A stretch of DNA of 22,929 nt from IMG/VR virus record IMGVR_UViG_3300025135_000029, positions 1 through 22,929 of that record, one strand, 5' to 3'. The number at the start of each line of letters is the position of its first letter. Within the stretch, counting starts at the first letter, position 1. Below the pieces are notes generated by a model that ran no database searches, was not told the DNA's origin, and saw only the letters and a list, made by a program, of their open reading frames with translations. Both the position numbers and the translations under genes were made by a program. Positions 2,786 through 18,372 of the stretch are shown piece after piece. The DNA is from a virus.

Positions 2786-4054
2786 ATGTTAGAAGTAAAA
2801 AAAGAGTTTAAGGAGTTAATACCGCCTTTGACGGTTGAAGAGTTCAAGCAATTAGAAGATAATTGTTTAGCGGAAGGCATAAGAGACAAAATTATAACTT
2901 GGAACGGGTTTATAATTGATGGGCATAACCGTTATGAAATAGCCACACGTTGGAACTTAGACTATCAAACCGAAAGTAAAAGTTTTGACGATGAAGAACA
3001 GGTAAAAGATTGGATGGATGCAAACCAATTAGGAAGGCGAAATTTAACGCTTGACCAAAGAAGAATATTAATTGGACGGCGGTACAATAGAGAAAAAAAT
3101 AAACAAGGTGGAACAGGAATTAATCAATATACAAAAGAGCAAAGTGGTAAATTTTTCCACTCTGCAAAAACATCTGAAATACTTGCAAAACAAAATAATG
3201 TATCTGAAAAAACAGTAAGGACCTACGGGAAAGATGCAGAAAAGTTTGAGCAAATAAAAGAAAAGCAGCCTGAATTAGCCAGTAAAATATGGAGTGGTGA
3301 AAAAACTTTTACGGAAATAAAGAAGGAAGAAAAGAAAGCTGAATACAAAGAAAAGGTTTTGCAATCACGAATTGAAACAGAAATAAACGAAAGTATAAAA
3401 CAAGGGAATAGTTTAGAAATATTAGAAACTTTAGAAGATGGTTGTATTGATATAGTTTTGACCGACCCGCCTTATGGGATTGATTATGTTTCTAATCGTT
3501 CGACAGATGAAAATGCAATTACAAAACGTGGATTGCTTAACGATGGTAAAGATGAAGCCTTTGATTTATTAGATAAAACTTGTGAAATATTACAAAGAAA
3601 AACAGCAGTAAATTCACATTTATATTTCTTTTGTAGTTGGTCTGTGTTTAGTAAATTTGAAGCTATTATAAGTAAGTATTTTACTATTAAAACACCTATT
3701 GTTTGGGATAAGGGAAACAAAGGAAGTGGAGATTTAGAAAACGATTGGGGAAACCAAACTGAAATAATAATTTATTGTGTAAAGGGTAAAAAATTAATTA
3801 ACAAAAGACGCGGAAATTTGATTAGTGTTTCAAGATTACACACTTCAAAAATGATACATCCAACACAAAAACCAAACGAATTAATAAGGGAAATATTAGA
3901 AGTATCTTTTAGTGAGGGAGATTTTGTTGTTGACCCTTTTATGGGTTCTGGAAGTACAATTAAAGTATGTCAAGAATTAAAGGTAAAATGTTTAGGAATT
4001 GAATTAGATAAAGAAATGTTTAATATAGCAAATAATTATATCAATGGAAATTAG
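2786..4054 (+). CDS. ParB-like nuclease/partition domain fused to a DNA adenine-type methyltransferase
   Basis: 422 residues. The N-terminal ParB-like domain (about 1-100) contains the signature IIDGHNRYEIA (Asp45-Gly46-His47-Asn48-Arg49). A helix-turn-helix-like segment (about 128-148, ILAKQNNVSEKTVRTYGKD) follows, then a beta-class amino-methyltransferase. In it, motif IV DPPY (227-230) precedes motif I DPFMGSGST (383-391), with HPTQKP at 358-363. DPPY suggests N6-adenine (or less likely N4-cytosine) methylation of DNA using S-adenosylmethionine. Such fusions occur in phages, where they may protect DNA from restriction or mark sequences. The ParB part may confer site binding. It has its own promoter and structured leader and overlaps the next gene by 11 bases. 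Confidence 0.88.
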   Translation: MLEVKKEFKELIPPLTVEEFKQLEDNCLAEGIRDKIITWNGFIIDGHNRYEIATRWNLDYQTESKSFDDEEQVKDWMDANQLGRRNLTLDQRRILIGRRYNREKNKQGGTGINQYTKEQSGKFFHSAKTSEILAKQNNVSEKTVRTYGKDAEKFEQIKEKQPELASKIWSGEKTFTEIKKEEKKAEYKEKVLQSRIETEINESIKQGNSLEILETLEDGCIDIVLTDPPYGIDYVSNRSTDENAITKRGLLNDGKDEAFDLLDKTCEILQRKTAVNSHLYFFCSWSVFSKFEAIISKYFTIKTPIVWDKGNKGSGDLENDWGNQTEIIIYCVKGKKLINKRRGNLISVSRLHTSKMIHPTQKPNELIREILEVSFSEGDFVVDPFMGSGSTIKVCQELKVKCLGIELDKEMFNIANNYINGN

Positions 4055-9348: not shown

Positions 9349-9624
9349 ATGGGAGATAAAAGAAAAAATAATGGAGGGGCGAGAATTGGTGCAGGTAGAC
9401 GACCAAAAGCTGATGAGTTGAAATTCTTAGAACGTTTAGATAATGTTATTGATAAAGACGATGCAATTGAAAAGTTAAAAGAATTTATTATTGAGGGTAA
9501 TTTTAATGCCCTTAAATTATATCTTGAATATCGATTCGGTAAACCAAAAGAAACAATAGATAATAATATTTATTTAAACGAACAATTCAATATAAAGGAT
9601 ATTTATAAAGTTGAAGAAACATAG
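9349..9624 (+). CDS. Terminase small subunit candidate
   Basis: 91 residues from ATG 9349; an earlier TTG at 9325 would overlap the upstream gene and adds only 8 residues, so I prefer the ATG. The N-terminus MGDKRKNNGGARIGAGRRPKA is basic and disordered (the GGARIGAGR-type motif is frequent in phage small terminases). A helical ALKLYLEYRFGKPKETID segment follows. No clear HTH is visible, so the role in recognising the packaging site is inferred mainly from position immediately before the large subunit, with a 14-base overlap. Other DNA-binding proteins remain possible. Confidence 0.6.
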   Translation: MGDKRKNNGGARIGAGRRPKADELKFLERLDNVIDKDDAIEKLKEFIIEGNFNALKLYLEYRFGKPKETIDNNIYLNEQFNIKDIYKVEET

Positions 9625-10813
9625 GGACACTTGGGACTTATTAGGAAGCAATACTCGATTCTTTGTCATAACAGGTGGCAGGGGCTCAGGTAAGAGTTTT
9701 GAGGTTGGCAGATTCGCCAGCCTTTTGTCGTTTGAAAGTGGCAACAAGATTCTGTTTACAAGGCAAACGATGACAAGTGCCCATCTATCAATCATTCCAG
9801 AGTTTCAAGAAAAATTAGACTTATTAAATATCGGATTTAACTTTGAAGTCAACCGTAGTGAGATTGTAAATAAAGCCTCCAGAAGCGAGATAATTTTTAA
9901 AGGGCTAAAGACTTCAAGCGGAGACCAAACAGCAAACCTAAAGTCATTGCAAGGCGTTACAACGTGGATAATGGACGAAGCCGAAGAACTCACAGACGAA
10001 GCGACCTTTGATAAGATAAATTTATCCATAAGACAAAAGGGCGTACAAAATAGAGTTATCTTAATACTAAACCCCGCCACTAAAGAGCATTGGATATATA
10101 AACGATTCTTTGAAGATGCAGGGGTGCAGGAAGGGTTCACAGGCTCAAAAGGAAACACCACATACATACATACCACATACCTAGATAACTATGATAATTT
10201 AGACGAAAGTTTTATTAATGAGGTGGAGCGTATAAAGAAGTCAAACCCTGAGAAATATAAGCACGTTATTTTGGGTGGTTGGCTTGACAAAGCTGAGGGG
10301 GTTGTATTCACGAATTGGAAGTTTGGCAAGTTCAACCCGGATGGATTGCAAACATCTTGTGGGATGGATTTTGGATTCAGTGTTGACCCAGATACATTGA
10401 CAGAAATAGCTATTGACAAAATCAAAAAGAAAATATACGTCAAGCAGCATATCTACTCAAACGGAATTAAGACTCACGTACTGGCACCAAAGATACTTAA
10501 TTCAGTAGGTAATAAATTAATAATTGCAGATAGTGCAGAGCCTCGTTTGATTGCCGACTTAAAACATTTAGGAGTAAATATTCAAGGAGTAAAAAAAGGT
10601 ACAATAGAAAGCGGCATATTAAGAATGCAGGATTTTGAAATAATAGTTGAGGAAAACTCAAATGATGTTGCAAAGGAATTAAATAACTATTGTTATGCAG
10701 ACAAAGGGAGTAATTTATACCTTGATAAATACAACCACGCAATTGATGGAATTAGATACAATGTGATGTTTCACTTAGATAACCCAAACAAAGGAAATTA
10801 CGCAATACATTAA
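9611..10813 (+). CDS. terL: Terminase large subunit
   Basis: 400 residues, typical of the shorter PBSX/Terminase_3-like TerL. The N-terminal ATPase has Walker A GGRGSGKS (22-29), Walker B with TTWIMDEAEEL (Asp122, Glu123) and coupling motif LILNPATKEHW (151-161). The C-terminal RNase H-like nuclease has GMDFGFSVDPD (Asp253), IIADSAEPR and a final DGIRYNV, which carry the metal-binding acidic residues. It packages DNA into the prohead and cuts it. Start is TTG 9611, overlapping the small subunit by 14 bases; there is no useful in-frame ATG before Walker A, and a start 21 codons before it suits this family. Confidence 0.92.
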   Translation: MKKHRDTWDLLGSNTRFFVITGGRGSGKSFEVGRFASLLSFESGNKILFTRQTMTSAHLSIIPEFQEKLDLLNIGFNFEVNRSEIVNKASRSEIIFKGLKTSSGDQTANLKSLQGVTTWIMDEAEELTDEATFDKINLSIRQKGVQNRVILILNPATKEHWIYKRFFEDAGVQEGFTGSKGNTTYIHTTYLDNYDNLDESFINEVERIKKSNPEKYKHVILGGWLDKAEGVVFTNWKFGKFNPDGLQTSCGMDFGFSVDPDTLTEIAIDKIKKKIYVKQHIYSNGIKTHVLAPKILNSVGNKLIIADSAEPRLIADLKHLGVNIQGVKKGTIESGILRMQDFEIIVEENSNDVAKELNNYCYADKGSNLYLDKYNHAIDGIRYNVMFHLDNPNKGNYAIH

Positions 10814-10816
10814 GAT

Positions 10817-11449
10817 ATGACAATTAAAATACCAGAGAATTTAAACGAAGTAAGATTAGAGCAATACCAAGAGTATTTAAAATTAACCAACAGGCCAGAC
10901 CTTAATGAAGATTACGCCAAACTAAAAGCGGTTAGCATATTCTGTGATTTAGATTTGGAGACTGTTAGAAAAATAAAGCTCAATGATATTAATGAAATAC
11001 TGGAGCAGATAGATAGCGTTTTTAAAGTTGCAACCCCGCATTTAAAAAGGTTTAAACACAAGGGCGTTGAATATGGATTCATTCCAAACCTTGAAGATAT
11101 AACAGCAGGTGAGCATATTGATGCAGAGAAATACCTATCGGACTTTAAAACGTTTCATAAGGCAATGGCAGTACTTTACAGACCCGTTATTACAAGTTTT
11201 AACAATATGTACACTATTGAAAAATACAACGGCTCAGAGGCTTATAGTGAGATAATGAAAGAAGTATCAGTTGAGGTTTATTTAGGCGCGTATCTTTTTT
11301 TTTGGAATTTAGCAAGCGAATTAATATTAGATATGAAAACCTCTTCACAAACTCAGGAAATTCAACAAGCGGTGAAGAAGGCTTTGGAAAAAAATGGGGA
11401 TGGTACACAAGTTTATACGCAGCTGCAAAAGGGGATGTCCTTAAATTAA
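10817..11449 (+). CDS. Tail assembly chaperone-like protein, G-like part with frameshift to T-like part
   Basis: 210 residues from ATG 10817, 3 bases after terL. The helical body, with RLEQYQEYLKLTNRPDLNEDYAKLKAV and VYLGAYLFFWNLASELILDM, has no enzyme motif. Near its 3' end, a slippery A AAA AAT stretch (11389-11395) would shift ribosomes to frame -1, giving a fusion of about 244 residues with the downstream frame. This G/GT arrangement is characteristic of tail assembly chaperones, which keep tape measure protein soluble before tail-tube assembly. No start codon other than TTG serves the second frame. The role is inferred from genetic layout; the sequence itself is not recognisably related to lambda gpG. 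Position beside terL is unusual. Confidence 0.65.
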   Translation: MTIKIPENLNEVRLEQYQEYLKLTNRPDLNEDYAKLKAVSIFCDLDLETVRKIKLNDINEILEQIDSVFKVATPHLKRFKHKGVEYGFIPNLEDITAGEHIDAEKYLSDFKTFHKAMAVLYRPVITSFNNMYTIEKYNGSEAYSEIMKEVSVEVYLGAYLFFWNLASELILDMKTSSQTQEIQQAVKKALEKNGDGTQVYTQLQKGMSLN

Positions 11450-11550
11450 AAGAGGTAGCAGAGCTGCCATTGCATCAATTATTAACTTGGTTAATGTTCA
11501 CGAAAGAAAACAACGAATTAGAAATTCAAAAAATAAAAAATAGACGATGA
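11302..11550 (+). CDS. T-like second half of frameshifted tail chaperone
   Basis: This frame is open from a TTG at 11302 to TGA 11548-11550, but only the part from about 11395 (51 residues, WGWYTSLYAAAKGDVLKLKEVAEL then PLHQLLTWLMFTKENNELE) looks like a folded helical protein. The upstream residues read as noise from the overlapping gene. No ATG exists before the Met inside LLTWLMF. It is therefore most likely made only as the C-terminal half of a frameshift fusion with the preceding gene. Its stop overlaps the ATG of the next gene (ATGA at 11547-11550), which indicates that ribosomes do reach it and couple to the next gene. Confidence 0.6.
   Translation: MEFSKRINIRYENLFTNSGNSTSGEEGFGKKWGWYTSLYAAAKGDVLKLKEVAELPLHQLLTWLMFTKENNELEIQKIKNRR
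11389..11395 (+). other. Predicted -1 ribosomal frameshift site (A AAA AAT)
   Basis: In the frame of the 210-residue gene this reads gaA AAA AAT GGG, matching the X XXY YYZ slippery pattern. A one-base backward slip continues with TGG GGA TGG TAC, giving WGWYTSLYAAAKGD, exactly where the conserved-looking part of the second frame begins. The product is about 244 residues. A run of nine Ts (11295-11303) upstream is a second possible but less likely slip site. Confidence 0.65.
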
Positions 11551-12044
11551 TATATTTTATAATTCAAAAGATAAAAGACGCATTACAAGAAGACCCATTT
11601 GTTACAACGGTAACGGAAGGGGATATATTCGACGTGGACTTAAACAAAAAAACTTTATTCCCTTTGTCGCATATCATAGTAAACAACGCACAACATCAGG
11701 GCAACGTTTGGGAGTTTGGCATTTCAATTCTTTGTATGGATATTGTAGATGAAGGACAATTGACCGACAACAAGCTTGATATTTGGAACACTCAATTTTT
11801 AGTTGCCAATAGATTACTGGATAGATTAAATAGGGGGGATTTAGCTTATGATAATTTTCAGTTAGTAGCGAATCCAACTTTAGAGCCGTTCACAGAGAGA
11901 TTTGAAAACAGCCTCGCAGGTTGGAGTGTTGACTTTTCAATCCAAGTGAGAAATGATATGACTATTTGCGATGACGTAATAAAAACATTTGATAAAACCT
12001 TTGATAAAACCTTTGATAAAACCTTTGATAAAACCTTTAAATAA
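11547..12044 (+). CDS. Tail terminator/neck-like protein with FDKT tail
   Basis: 165 residues. The body has DALQEDPFVTTVTEGDIFDVDLNKKTLFPLSHIIVNNA, WEFGISILCMDIVDE and EPFTERFENSLAGWSVDFSIQVRNDMTICDD. This is recognisable from memory as a Bacteroidota siphophage neck or tail-completion protein; the alpha/beta layout resembles tail terminators such as gpU. After residue about 147 the protein ends in four tandem FDKT units, absent from what I expect for the family. It starts by ATGA overlap with the chaperone's second frame and ends one base into the next ATG (TAATG). The terminator role is inferred. Confidence 0.6.
   Translation: MIYFIIQKIKDALQEDPFVTTVTEGDIFDVDLNKKTLFPLSHIIVNNAQHQGNVWEFGISILCMDIVDEGQLTDNKLDIWNTQFLVANRLLDRLNRGDLAYDNFQLVANPTLEPFTERFENSLAGWSVDFSIQVRNDMTICDDVIKTFDKTFDKTFDKTFDKTFK
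11988..12035 (+). repeat. Four exact 12-base tandem repeats (TTTGATAAAACC)
   Basis: Units 11988-11999, 12000-12011, 12012-12023 and 12024-12035 are identical and encode FDKT each; a fifth, partial TTT follows before AAA TAA. The unit length is a multiple of three, so copy-number change leaves the frame intact and only changes the number of FDKT units at the end of the tail protein. Confidence 0.95.
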
Positions 12045-16481: not shown

Positions 16482-16624
16482 TGATAGGATATATATTAAA
16501 ATTATTAAGTTTTGTTGAGGTTAGAGACTCAGAGTTAATTAACCAAGCAAAGGGAAAATACAAACTCCCTGAAAATATTAACGAATTTAAAAGACAGATA
16601 AAATGGCGATTAAGAAAAAAATAA
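16481..16624 (+). CDS. Very small hypothetical protein (47 aa)
   Basis: 47 residues from ATG 16481, which overlaps the previous stop by 1 base; TAA at 16622-16624. The peptide starts hydrophobic (MIGYILKLLSFVEV) then turns charged (DSELINQAKGKYKLPENINEFKRQIKWRLRKK), giving a short hydrophobic N-terminus and a basic C-terminus. It overlaps the tape measure gene by 22 bases. Its position between the large tail protein and the tape measure is where small tail-assembly genes often lie, but no function can be assigned. Confidence 0.5.
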   Translation: MIGYILKLLSFVEVRDSELINQAKGKYKLPENINEFKRQIKWRLRKK

Positions 16625-18372
16625 TAATAACAGCAGAAACTGAAGCAGCTCAAAAAAATGTCAAGAACTTAGAAAAAGAAGTAAAAGACTTAACTAAGGC
16701 GCAAAAAGAGCAAGAGAAACAATCGGTTAATAGTAATAAAATTATTCAAGCCTTAGACGATGCTACTGGTGGTGCTGTTTCAAGATTTAGTAGATTAAAA
16801 GATGCGGCGTTTGAGTCTGTTAAATCTGTTAAATTATTTAGCGCATCTTTATCGGGTTTAAGCAAGGCGTTAATAGCTACAGGTATTGGTGCGTTAGTTG
16901 TTGCCTTAGGTGCTATTGTTGCGTATTGGGATGAAATAGTGGCTTTTATAACACAGGCAGAGAAAAAGCAAAGAGAGTACATTGAAAGTTTAAAAGCGAC
17001 AAAATCACTAATAAGCTCTCAAATAGATTTACTTGACAAGCAAATAAAATTAGCTGAAGAAAATAATGACTCAGTAGAAGAGCTTGTGTTAAAGAAAAAA
17101 GAGTTGTTAATTGACCAAATGAAGATTAACAACCTACTGCTTAAAGCCCTTGAAACTGAGTTGGAAATGGAAAAATCCACAGGAACTCAGGTGGGATTTT
17201 GGGAGGGGATTTGGGTTTCTATGAAGGGAGCGTTAAGCACGTCTTTAATATATGAGCACATCGCAAACAAAACCATCGAAAGTGTTGAAAGGCAAAGAGA
17301 AATTCAAGAAAAAATAAATGCATTAACAGGTGAGACTATTGATTTAGAACTTATAATGCTTCGTTTAAACAGACCAAAACAGGACAACAAACAAAAAGAG
17401 TTAGACCTTGACAAGCAAATACTTGAAGAGCTAAAAGGCAAACATGGTGTTTTAATGGAAATTCAAGCCCTTGAAAATGAGTTTTTACAATCCAGATTAG
17501 AAGCCCAAACACAAGAGGAAAACGCCGTCAGGGAAAAGTACTTTAGGTTAATTGAATTAGCTAAAGAGTTTGGAGAAGAGACCGAACTTTTAGAGGAAGC
17601 GCAACAAACTGCACTTCAAGAAATACGTGACAGATATGAAAAAAAGCGTGCAGAAATTGCAGAGGTCGAAAGAATGGCAAAACTAGAGCTTGAGCTTTTG
17701 CAAATGGAAGAAGAAGGCGAGATAAAACTCGCTAAAGAAATTGAAATTGAAGAAGCCAAAAGGGATGCTTTATTAGCGAATGAAGATTTAACCGAAAGCC
17801 AAAGGGCGTTAATCATTCAAAAGAGTGCGAACAAAATAACAGGAATTAGAGAAGATGCAGCCAAAGCAGAAGAAGAAATTGAGCGATTAAAAAATGAAGC
17901 ATCCCTTCAAATGTTATCAGAAACAATTGGGGCAATATCAAGCATATTAGGCAACCAATCTAAAGCAGGAAAAGCCTTTGCAATCGCTCAAGCATTAATA
18001 AATACATATCAAGGTATTACGGCAGAGTTAGCCACAAAGACTATTACACCTTTTGAATTTGGTATTAAGTTGGCAAATATTGCTTCTACTGCTGCAATAG
18101 GATTCGCAGCGGTTAAAAATATAGTCAAAGTAAAAACTCCAGGAGGAGGTGGGGGTGGTGGAGTTTCAATACCAAGCGCACCGAGCATACCGACAGCATC
18201 GACAAGCGAGCCAACCCCTCCAGAGTTTGATGTAAATACAGGAAGTGTGGCAAATCAATTAGCAGGGTTAGGAGAGAACCAAGCACCAATTCAGACGTAT
18301 GTGGTTGCAAATAATGTTACAAGCGCACAATCGTTAGACCGCAATATCATTGAGAGCGCAAGCATTGGTTAA
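16603..18372 (+). CDS. Tail tape measure protein
   Basis: 589 residues. It has extended coiled-coil stretches throughout (residues about 15-45 and 115-440, Glu/Lys/Leu-rich heptads) and a hydrophobic helix near 88-110 (KALIATGIGALVVALGAIVAYW). A second hydrophobic region lies near 485-510 (LANIASTAAIGFAAVKNIV), then a poly-Gly run and a Ser/Pro/Thr-rich tail. This is the tape measure architecture: it sets tail length, is threaded in the tube, and may pass into the host membrane during injection. By the usual rule of about 0.15 nm per residue the tail would be about 90 nm. It is preceded by a 47-residue gene with 22-base overlap. Confidence 0.82.
   Translation: MAIKKKIIITAETEAAQKNVKNLEKEVKDLTKAQKEQEKQSVNSNKIIQALDDATGGAVSRFSRLKDAAFESVKSVKLFSASLSGLSKALIATGIGALVVALGAIVAYWDEIVAFITQAEKKQREYIESLKATKSLISSQIDLLDKQIKLAEENNDSVEELVLKKKELLIDQMKINNLLLKALETELEMEKSTGTQVGFWEGIWVSMKGALSTSLIYEHIANKTIESVERQREIQEKINALTGETIDLELIMLRLNRPKQDNKQKELDLDKQILEELKGKHGVLMEIQALENEFLQSRLEAQTQEENAVREKYFRLIELAKEFGEETELLEEAQQTALQEIRDRYEKKRAEIAEVERMAKLELELLQMEEEGEIKLAKEIEIEEAKRDALLANEDLTESQRALIIQKSANKITGIREDAAKAEEEIERLKNEASLQMLSETIGAISSILGNQSKAGKAFAIAQALINTYQGITAELATKTITPFEFGIKLANIASTAAIGFAAVKNIVKVKTPGGGGGGGVSIPSAPSIPTASTSEPTPPEFDVNTGSVANQLAGLGENQAPIQTYVVANNVTSAQSLDRNIIESASIG

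Follow-up and report, generated by a model that had tools for sequence, protein, structure and literature searches.

Directly after the gene for the large terminase subunit (terL), the window analysed here, a 22,929-base IMG/VR virus record taken at its full length, carries two overlapping reading frames. The locus raises the question of whether both frames are read as one gene and, if so, where and by what the frame is changed and what the products do. A preliminary description had proposed a -1 fusion beside terL, with a G/GT-like function and a slip at an A AAA AAT heptamer. In our analysis the fusion proved well supported and the function moderately so, while the named slippery site did not hold. 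The features under discussion are the following.

9611..10813, + strand: terminase large subunit gene (terL), matching TIGR01547 (PBSX family) with E 3.7e-42
10817..11449, + strand: ORF1, putative short G-like product of 210 aa (ORF list, family alignment, model pLDDT 83.1)
11295..11303, + strand: T9, the proposed slip tract (9-11 Ts in 324/324 relatives with the -1 arrangement)
11302..11550, + strand: -1 frame part including its stop, conserved from the tract onward
11389..11395, + strand: A AAA AAT heptamer, most likely unused (in 11/84 distinct sequences)
11547..12044, + strand: next gene after the -1 frame part (ORF list; phrog_30964; syntenic in relatives by tblastn on loci)
16603..18372, + strand: tape-measure-like gene (PHROG tape-measure families, best E 4.3e-16)

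The frames, their overlap and a fusion of about 244 residues are as had been described. ORF1 runs from 10817 to 11449 and the -1 ORF to 11550, and the first 162 residues of ORF1, common to the short product and the fusion, joined to 82 residues from the -1 frame give 244 aa. The lack of an ATG ahead of the conserved part of the second frame also holds in the window, and the TGA of this frame indeed shares bases with the start codon of the following gene (ATGA at 11547-11550). ORF1 begins 4 bases past terL and 5 kb ahead of the tape-measure-like gene at 16603, in agreement with the earlier statement that the pair adjoins terL and is far from the tape measure. The T9 tract holds an in-phase heptamer, T_TTT_TTT, at 11296-11302, and lies about 90 bases upstream of A AAA AAT.

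Two further observations concern the rest of the window. The 11547 gene carries at its 3' end (11982-12038) a 12-base tandem repeat in 4.8 copies, encoding repeated FDKT. Between 16603 and 22927 the tape-measure-like gene comes first and is followed by capsid-like and PBSX-type portal genes (the capsid being assigned by eye), an order that looks inverted relative to common siphophages.

Conservation of the T tract and of the fusion

Nine Ts in identical codon phase were found in the window, in phages P12024S and P12024L and in six IMG/VR loci, and in all of these the -1 frame is open and similar from the tract onward. After enlargement of the set by the best 80 relatives of the scan, with locus L010 left out before the count, 9 or 10 Ts were present in 89/89 loci, window included. 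The preliminary description had the -1 frame looking like protein from WGWYTSLYAAAKGD; its conservation starts right after the run at 11295-11303, approximately 30 codons earlier. Codon usage at the tract is uniform as well. Among 84 distinct sequences, which are related and do not represent independent events, the Phe codons of the tract are TTT in 168/168 cases (both in 84/84 sequences) against 553/701 in the upstream background, and the Val codon preceding them is GTT in 75/75 against 275/681.

The substitution pattern was studied in 29 disjoint close pairs picked from 79 sequences, with the expectation taken from random placement. In the -1 frame, 257 non-synonymous substitutions were counted from the tract to the WGW motif against 294.9 expected (sd 7.9), fewer than in any of 300 simulations, and 126 against 194.7 (sd 6.7) past the motif. 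For the zero frame, the values of these two segments are 278 against 289.9 (sd 8.2) and 204 against 192.2 (sd 6.5). The -1 frame between the tract and the WGW motif is under purifying selection, and as its substitutions alter the protein less than random placement would, this frame is protein-coding right from the tract. The short product's zero-frame tail varies in length and is under hardly any constraint.

Three more viral scans and a second scan of genome contigs, sampled by the best 80 per scan and located with peptide patterns that exclude the T tract, brought the relatives to 329 loci. Contigs may recur among these, and distinct counts are therefore used; the window itself lies outside the sets of 325, 299 and 232 given below. 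Both parts are held by 325 of the 329 loci. Those omitted are L010, L177 and L256, in which the first part reaches or nearly reaches the locus end, and L335, from a Nitrospirota MAG, where about 60 residues were matched. A -1 offset with 9, 10 or 11 Ts at the junction was observed in 324 of the 325.

The exception is L277, which has both parts in one frame and no T run. Its single ORF of 258 aa (2983-3759) is flanked by a terminase-like ORF and by an ORF resembling the same next gene, the neighbours being judged from their translations, and it supports the fusion as a real protein. In addition, eight single viral proteins of 226-267 aa in BFVD match both the N and the C models, the C part mostly weakly; together with L277 they suggest that the fusion is also used elsewhere as a plain protein. 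Given the conserved tract, -1 frame and junction and the relative with a single-ORF fusion, the comparison supports a frameshift with two products. We thus regard the -1 fusion of the two parts, predicted from the sequences to give a short and a long product, as real.

L277 also contains, perhaps by chance in an AT-rich gene, the overlapping zero-phase heptamers T_TTA_AAA (3453) and A_AAA_AAA (3456), within 3453-3462. A slip there would lead to a stop in the -1 frame after 14-15 codons, so that in this relative the shift might yield the short form.

RNA polymerase or ribosome

We propose that a programmed frameshift on the T9 tract would yield the 210-aa short G-like product from the zero frame and the 244-aa G-T fusion from the -1 frame. 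If RNA polymerase slips, an mRNA with one extra U would be read into the -1 frame, while on an mRNA missing one U, reading would stop in the +1 frame within a few codons. According to passages in two papers, nine is the length for efficient slippage of bacterial RNA polymerase, and selection against A and T runs appears at nine in many genomes (PMC5009743, PMC1088944).

In 299 distinct regions the run consists of nine Ts in 258, ten in 38 and eleven in 3, and is never shorter; an earlier, smaller set gave the same picture. The tract slides against the codons, as in GTT TTT TTT TAC, GGT TTT TTT TTG and TTT TTT TTT CTG, and its two ends compensate each other. Relative to T_TTT_TTT, an additional 5' T is absent from 36 regions, each of which has two or more additional Ts on the 3' side; in the three regions that lack an additional 3' T, there are two on the 5' side. 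With independent ends, 17.77 runs shorter than nine would be expected among 170 cluster representatives; none was seen, and none of 20,000 shuffles matched this. Loss of one U would open the +1 frame, and in 272 of the 299 regions this frame reaches a stop codon within 3-7 codons. Since the runs are never shorter than nine, though seven Ts suffice for tandem tRNA slippage, polymerase slippage is favoured over ribosomal slippage, and the frameshift probably arises mainly from RNA polymerase slipping on nine Ts. Counted against this are covarying residues, which could partly mimic the end-to-end trade-off in such related sequences, and, as regards slippage in the hosts, the only mild rarity of T9 outside the site (25 against 40.6 expected in 1.32 Mb; for T10, 2 against 13.4).

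The same tract and products could also result from a ribosomal shift, with tRNA-Phe slipping in tandem by -1 on U_UUU_UUU, the way G/GT frameshifts usually work; we consider this a serious but less probable explanation. An in-phase T_TTT_TTT is present in every tract (232/232, and all 299 distinct regions), although any run of nine implies one. No conserved nested RNA structure was found downstream of the tract (0 consensus pairs in 20 sequences). Single-sequence folding of seven sequences gave z values from -2.48 to +1.50, six of them folding like shuffles and L011 (z -2.48) being the exception. A stimulatory stem-loop or pseudoknot is frequent, though not obligatory, in programmed -1 ribosomal frameshifts. 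Passages in the literature give ribosomal -1 shifting as the known mechanism of lambda- and HK97-type chaperones, and they also describe U_UUU_UUU as much less shift-prone in E. coli than A_AAA_AAG (PMC5009743).

Transcriptional slippage on runs of nine A or T is described, in passages of three papers, for Thermus dnaX, the Shigella mxiE and spa genes, Citrobacter tssM and IS elements (PMC1088944, PMC4256274, PMC5009743). As described there, these genes resemble the pair studied here in the run of nine and in a long and a short product per gene; they also have no conserved stimulator, and none was found here. In those cases slippage was demonstrated by experiment, whereas for the present gene we infer the polymerase step from the run-length pattern. 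In the open-access literature, outside which most subscription papers lie, no report was found of a tail chaperone made via transcriptional slippage, or of a frameshift in the T9-tract gene family. With RNA polymerase as the slipping machine, the ratio of short to long chaperone would be set by its behaviour on at least nine Ts, and L277 may invert the logic, with a short form of about 174 aa in a dnaX-like manner; we give this proposal an even chance.

Role and genome position of the pair

Lambda G/GT and HK97 gp13/gp13-14 likewise consist of two overlapping frames, the second in -1, with a short and a long product. By analogy with lambda G and GT, the short form would bind the tape-measure protein and the long form would recruit the tail tube protein, and neither would be expected in the virion. 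The slip tract differs, being T9 or longer here and a heptamer with a purine site in lambda and HK97, and no sequence similarity between their chaperones and the present pair was found.

The structure model of ORF1 reached the pLDDT listed above, with low confidence at the zero-frame end, and the model of the C part was poorer (68.2). Foldseek returned no PDB chain at E 0.001. Re-alignment to 594 PDB chains placed the HK97 tail assembly chaperone gp13 (2ob9) first, with Z 4.0, a weak value of a kind that can be due to chance (rmsd 3.5, 62 aligned), ahead of an unrelated chain at Z 3.1; the C model gave no entry in the re-alignment. BFVD returned 39 matches at E 0.001, with only uncharacterised proteins among those bearing a name; a protein labelled tail assembly chaperone appeared at E 0.034. 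At the sequence level, no relation to lambda G and T, HK97 gp13 or T4 gp26 was detected, in comparisons where a lambda V control also gave nothing. A PDB sequence search with both profiles yielded nothing significant, and searches of Pfam, PHROG and NCBIfam gave no family named as a chaperone. At a cutoff of E 0.1, weak matches to phrog_166 (tail protein) were obtained for 11 members out of 44, the best with E 0.00098, which is a lead only; T4 gp26 and gp51 belong to other PHROGs.

A weak BFVD match, gp10 of Flavobacterium phage 6H, was not counted: its frame ends at CFFY with T6 and the -1 frame stops at once. Directly 3' of gp10 in this phage (L091, 10048-10351) are some 300 unannotated bases with an open frame of about 100 codons.

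G/GT genes typically adjoin the tape-measure gene, a typical rather than strictly defining trait. Such adjacency fails here, both in the window and in the relatives, where the pair also follows terL. Among the long contigs listed, as in P12024S and P12024L, terL is followed by the frameshift gene, the 11547 gene and then, where matched, the 12547, 13090 and 14184 genes, and a tape-measure match, where found, comes after these. The per-gene numbers are rough, being taken from the matches listed in a tblastn search of a locus set with 278 entries, among which repeats are possible. Judging from this gene order, the position after terL is a stable trait of the T9-tract gene family. In lambda and HK97, used as controls, the chaperone pair lies between the tube and tape-measure genes, which bears out the earlier remark that a place after the terminase is unusual.

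A frameshift gene with two products in a tail module is a known mark of tail chaperones. The two-frame anatomy, the weak fold match to 2ob9 and the tape-measure-like gene downstream make a G/GT-like role most likely, with membership of the lambda/HK97 chaperone families no more than possible, and we consider it likely that the pair acts as tail assembly chaperones. A real frameshift in some other protein, for example a head-tail or packaging factor sitting with the terminase, would suit the place directly after terL, away from the tape-measure gene, and the lack of a sequence match to chaperones. We judge it unlikely in view of 2ob9 heading the re-alignment, the type of gene and the phrog_166 matches. 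The T9 frameshift, polymerase slippage and the tail chaperone role, taken jointly, appear to us about as probable as their opposite.

Other readings of the junction, hosts and implications

Separate translation of the two frames, the second part having its own start codon or being re-initiated, is how the homologous pair of the Nonlabens (Persicivirga) phages P12024S and P12024L is annotated. The genes gp38/gp39 and their counterparts (phrog_32199, phrog_38404) are recorded as two hypothetical proteins, with an in-frame ATG for the second that overlaps the stop codon ending the first. The preliminary description had counted an own start in relatives against the frameshift; the Nonlabens records do contain such an ATG gene (gp39, P12024S), but the pair occupies the same place and keeps T9 and the open -1 frame. 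Across the family, 208 of 232 distinct relatives lack both ATG and GTG in the stretch of the -1 frame that precedes the conserved motif. The TTG at 11302 merely reflects how the ORF list opens the frame; 52 of 84 distinct sequences have TTA or TTT there. An independent start as the general mechanism was therefore rejected, and with L277 forming one ORF and the eight BFVD proteins containing both parts, we regard separate proteins as very improbable. An in-frame ATG before the WGWY motif was observed in the two P12024 phages (L002 and L003, at 11594) and in L092, and these may additionally make the second part alone.

A slip at A AAA AAT (11389-11395), as first proposed, is more improbable still. 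The heptamer is present in the zero-frame phase in the window, where the -1 frame Lys-Lys-Trp codons spell it, but it is not conserved: the T run occurs in all 84 distinct sequences, window included, and A AAA AAT in the few listed above, and the heptamer was therefore rejected as the slip site. Furthermore, the -1 frame is already conserved and constrained upstream of 11389, which a slip at that point would not require. Homopolymers are error-prone in sequencing, but a sequencing or assembly error as the source of the frame break can be dismissed, since length errors would scatter the frames, and the 324 loci keep the -1 offset in all three phases whether the run has 9, 10 or 11 Ts.

Concerning the hosts, P12024S and P12024L infect a flavobacterium. 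A first scan of genome contigs found no relative; four loci came from the second, of which two lie in Bacteroidetes MAGs. The hosts of this phage group are most probably Bacteroidota, as extrapolated for the contigs. The gene pair with T9 was also observed in a contig assigned by binning to a Pseudooceanicola MAG (L334), which is perhaps a mis-binned phage or points to a host outside Bacteroidota.

As a textbook case of recoding in tailed phages, the G/GT shift is attributed to the ribosome. Through the present analysis phrog_32199 and phrog_38404, both without a named function, gain a likely role and a corrected gene model, the deposited records having split the single frameshift gene in annotation. 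The two cultured phages P12024S and P12024L allow slippage to be tested directly. If the shift is indeed made by the polymerase, selection would keep the ratio of the products rather than the way of making them, and tail assembly would be tied to the fidelity of RNA polymerase.
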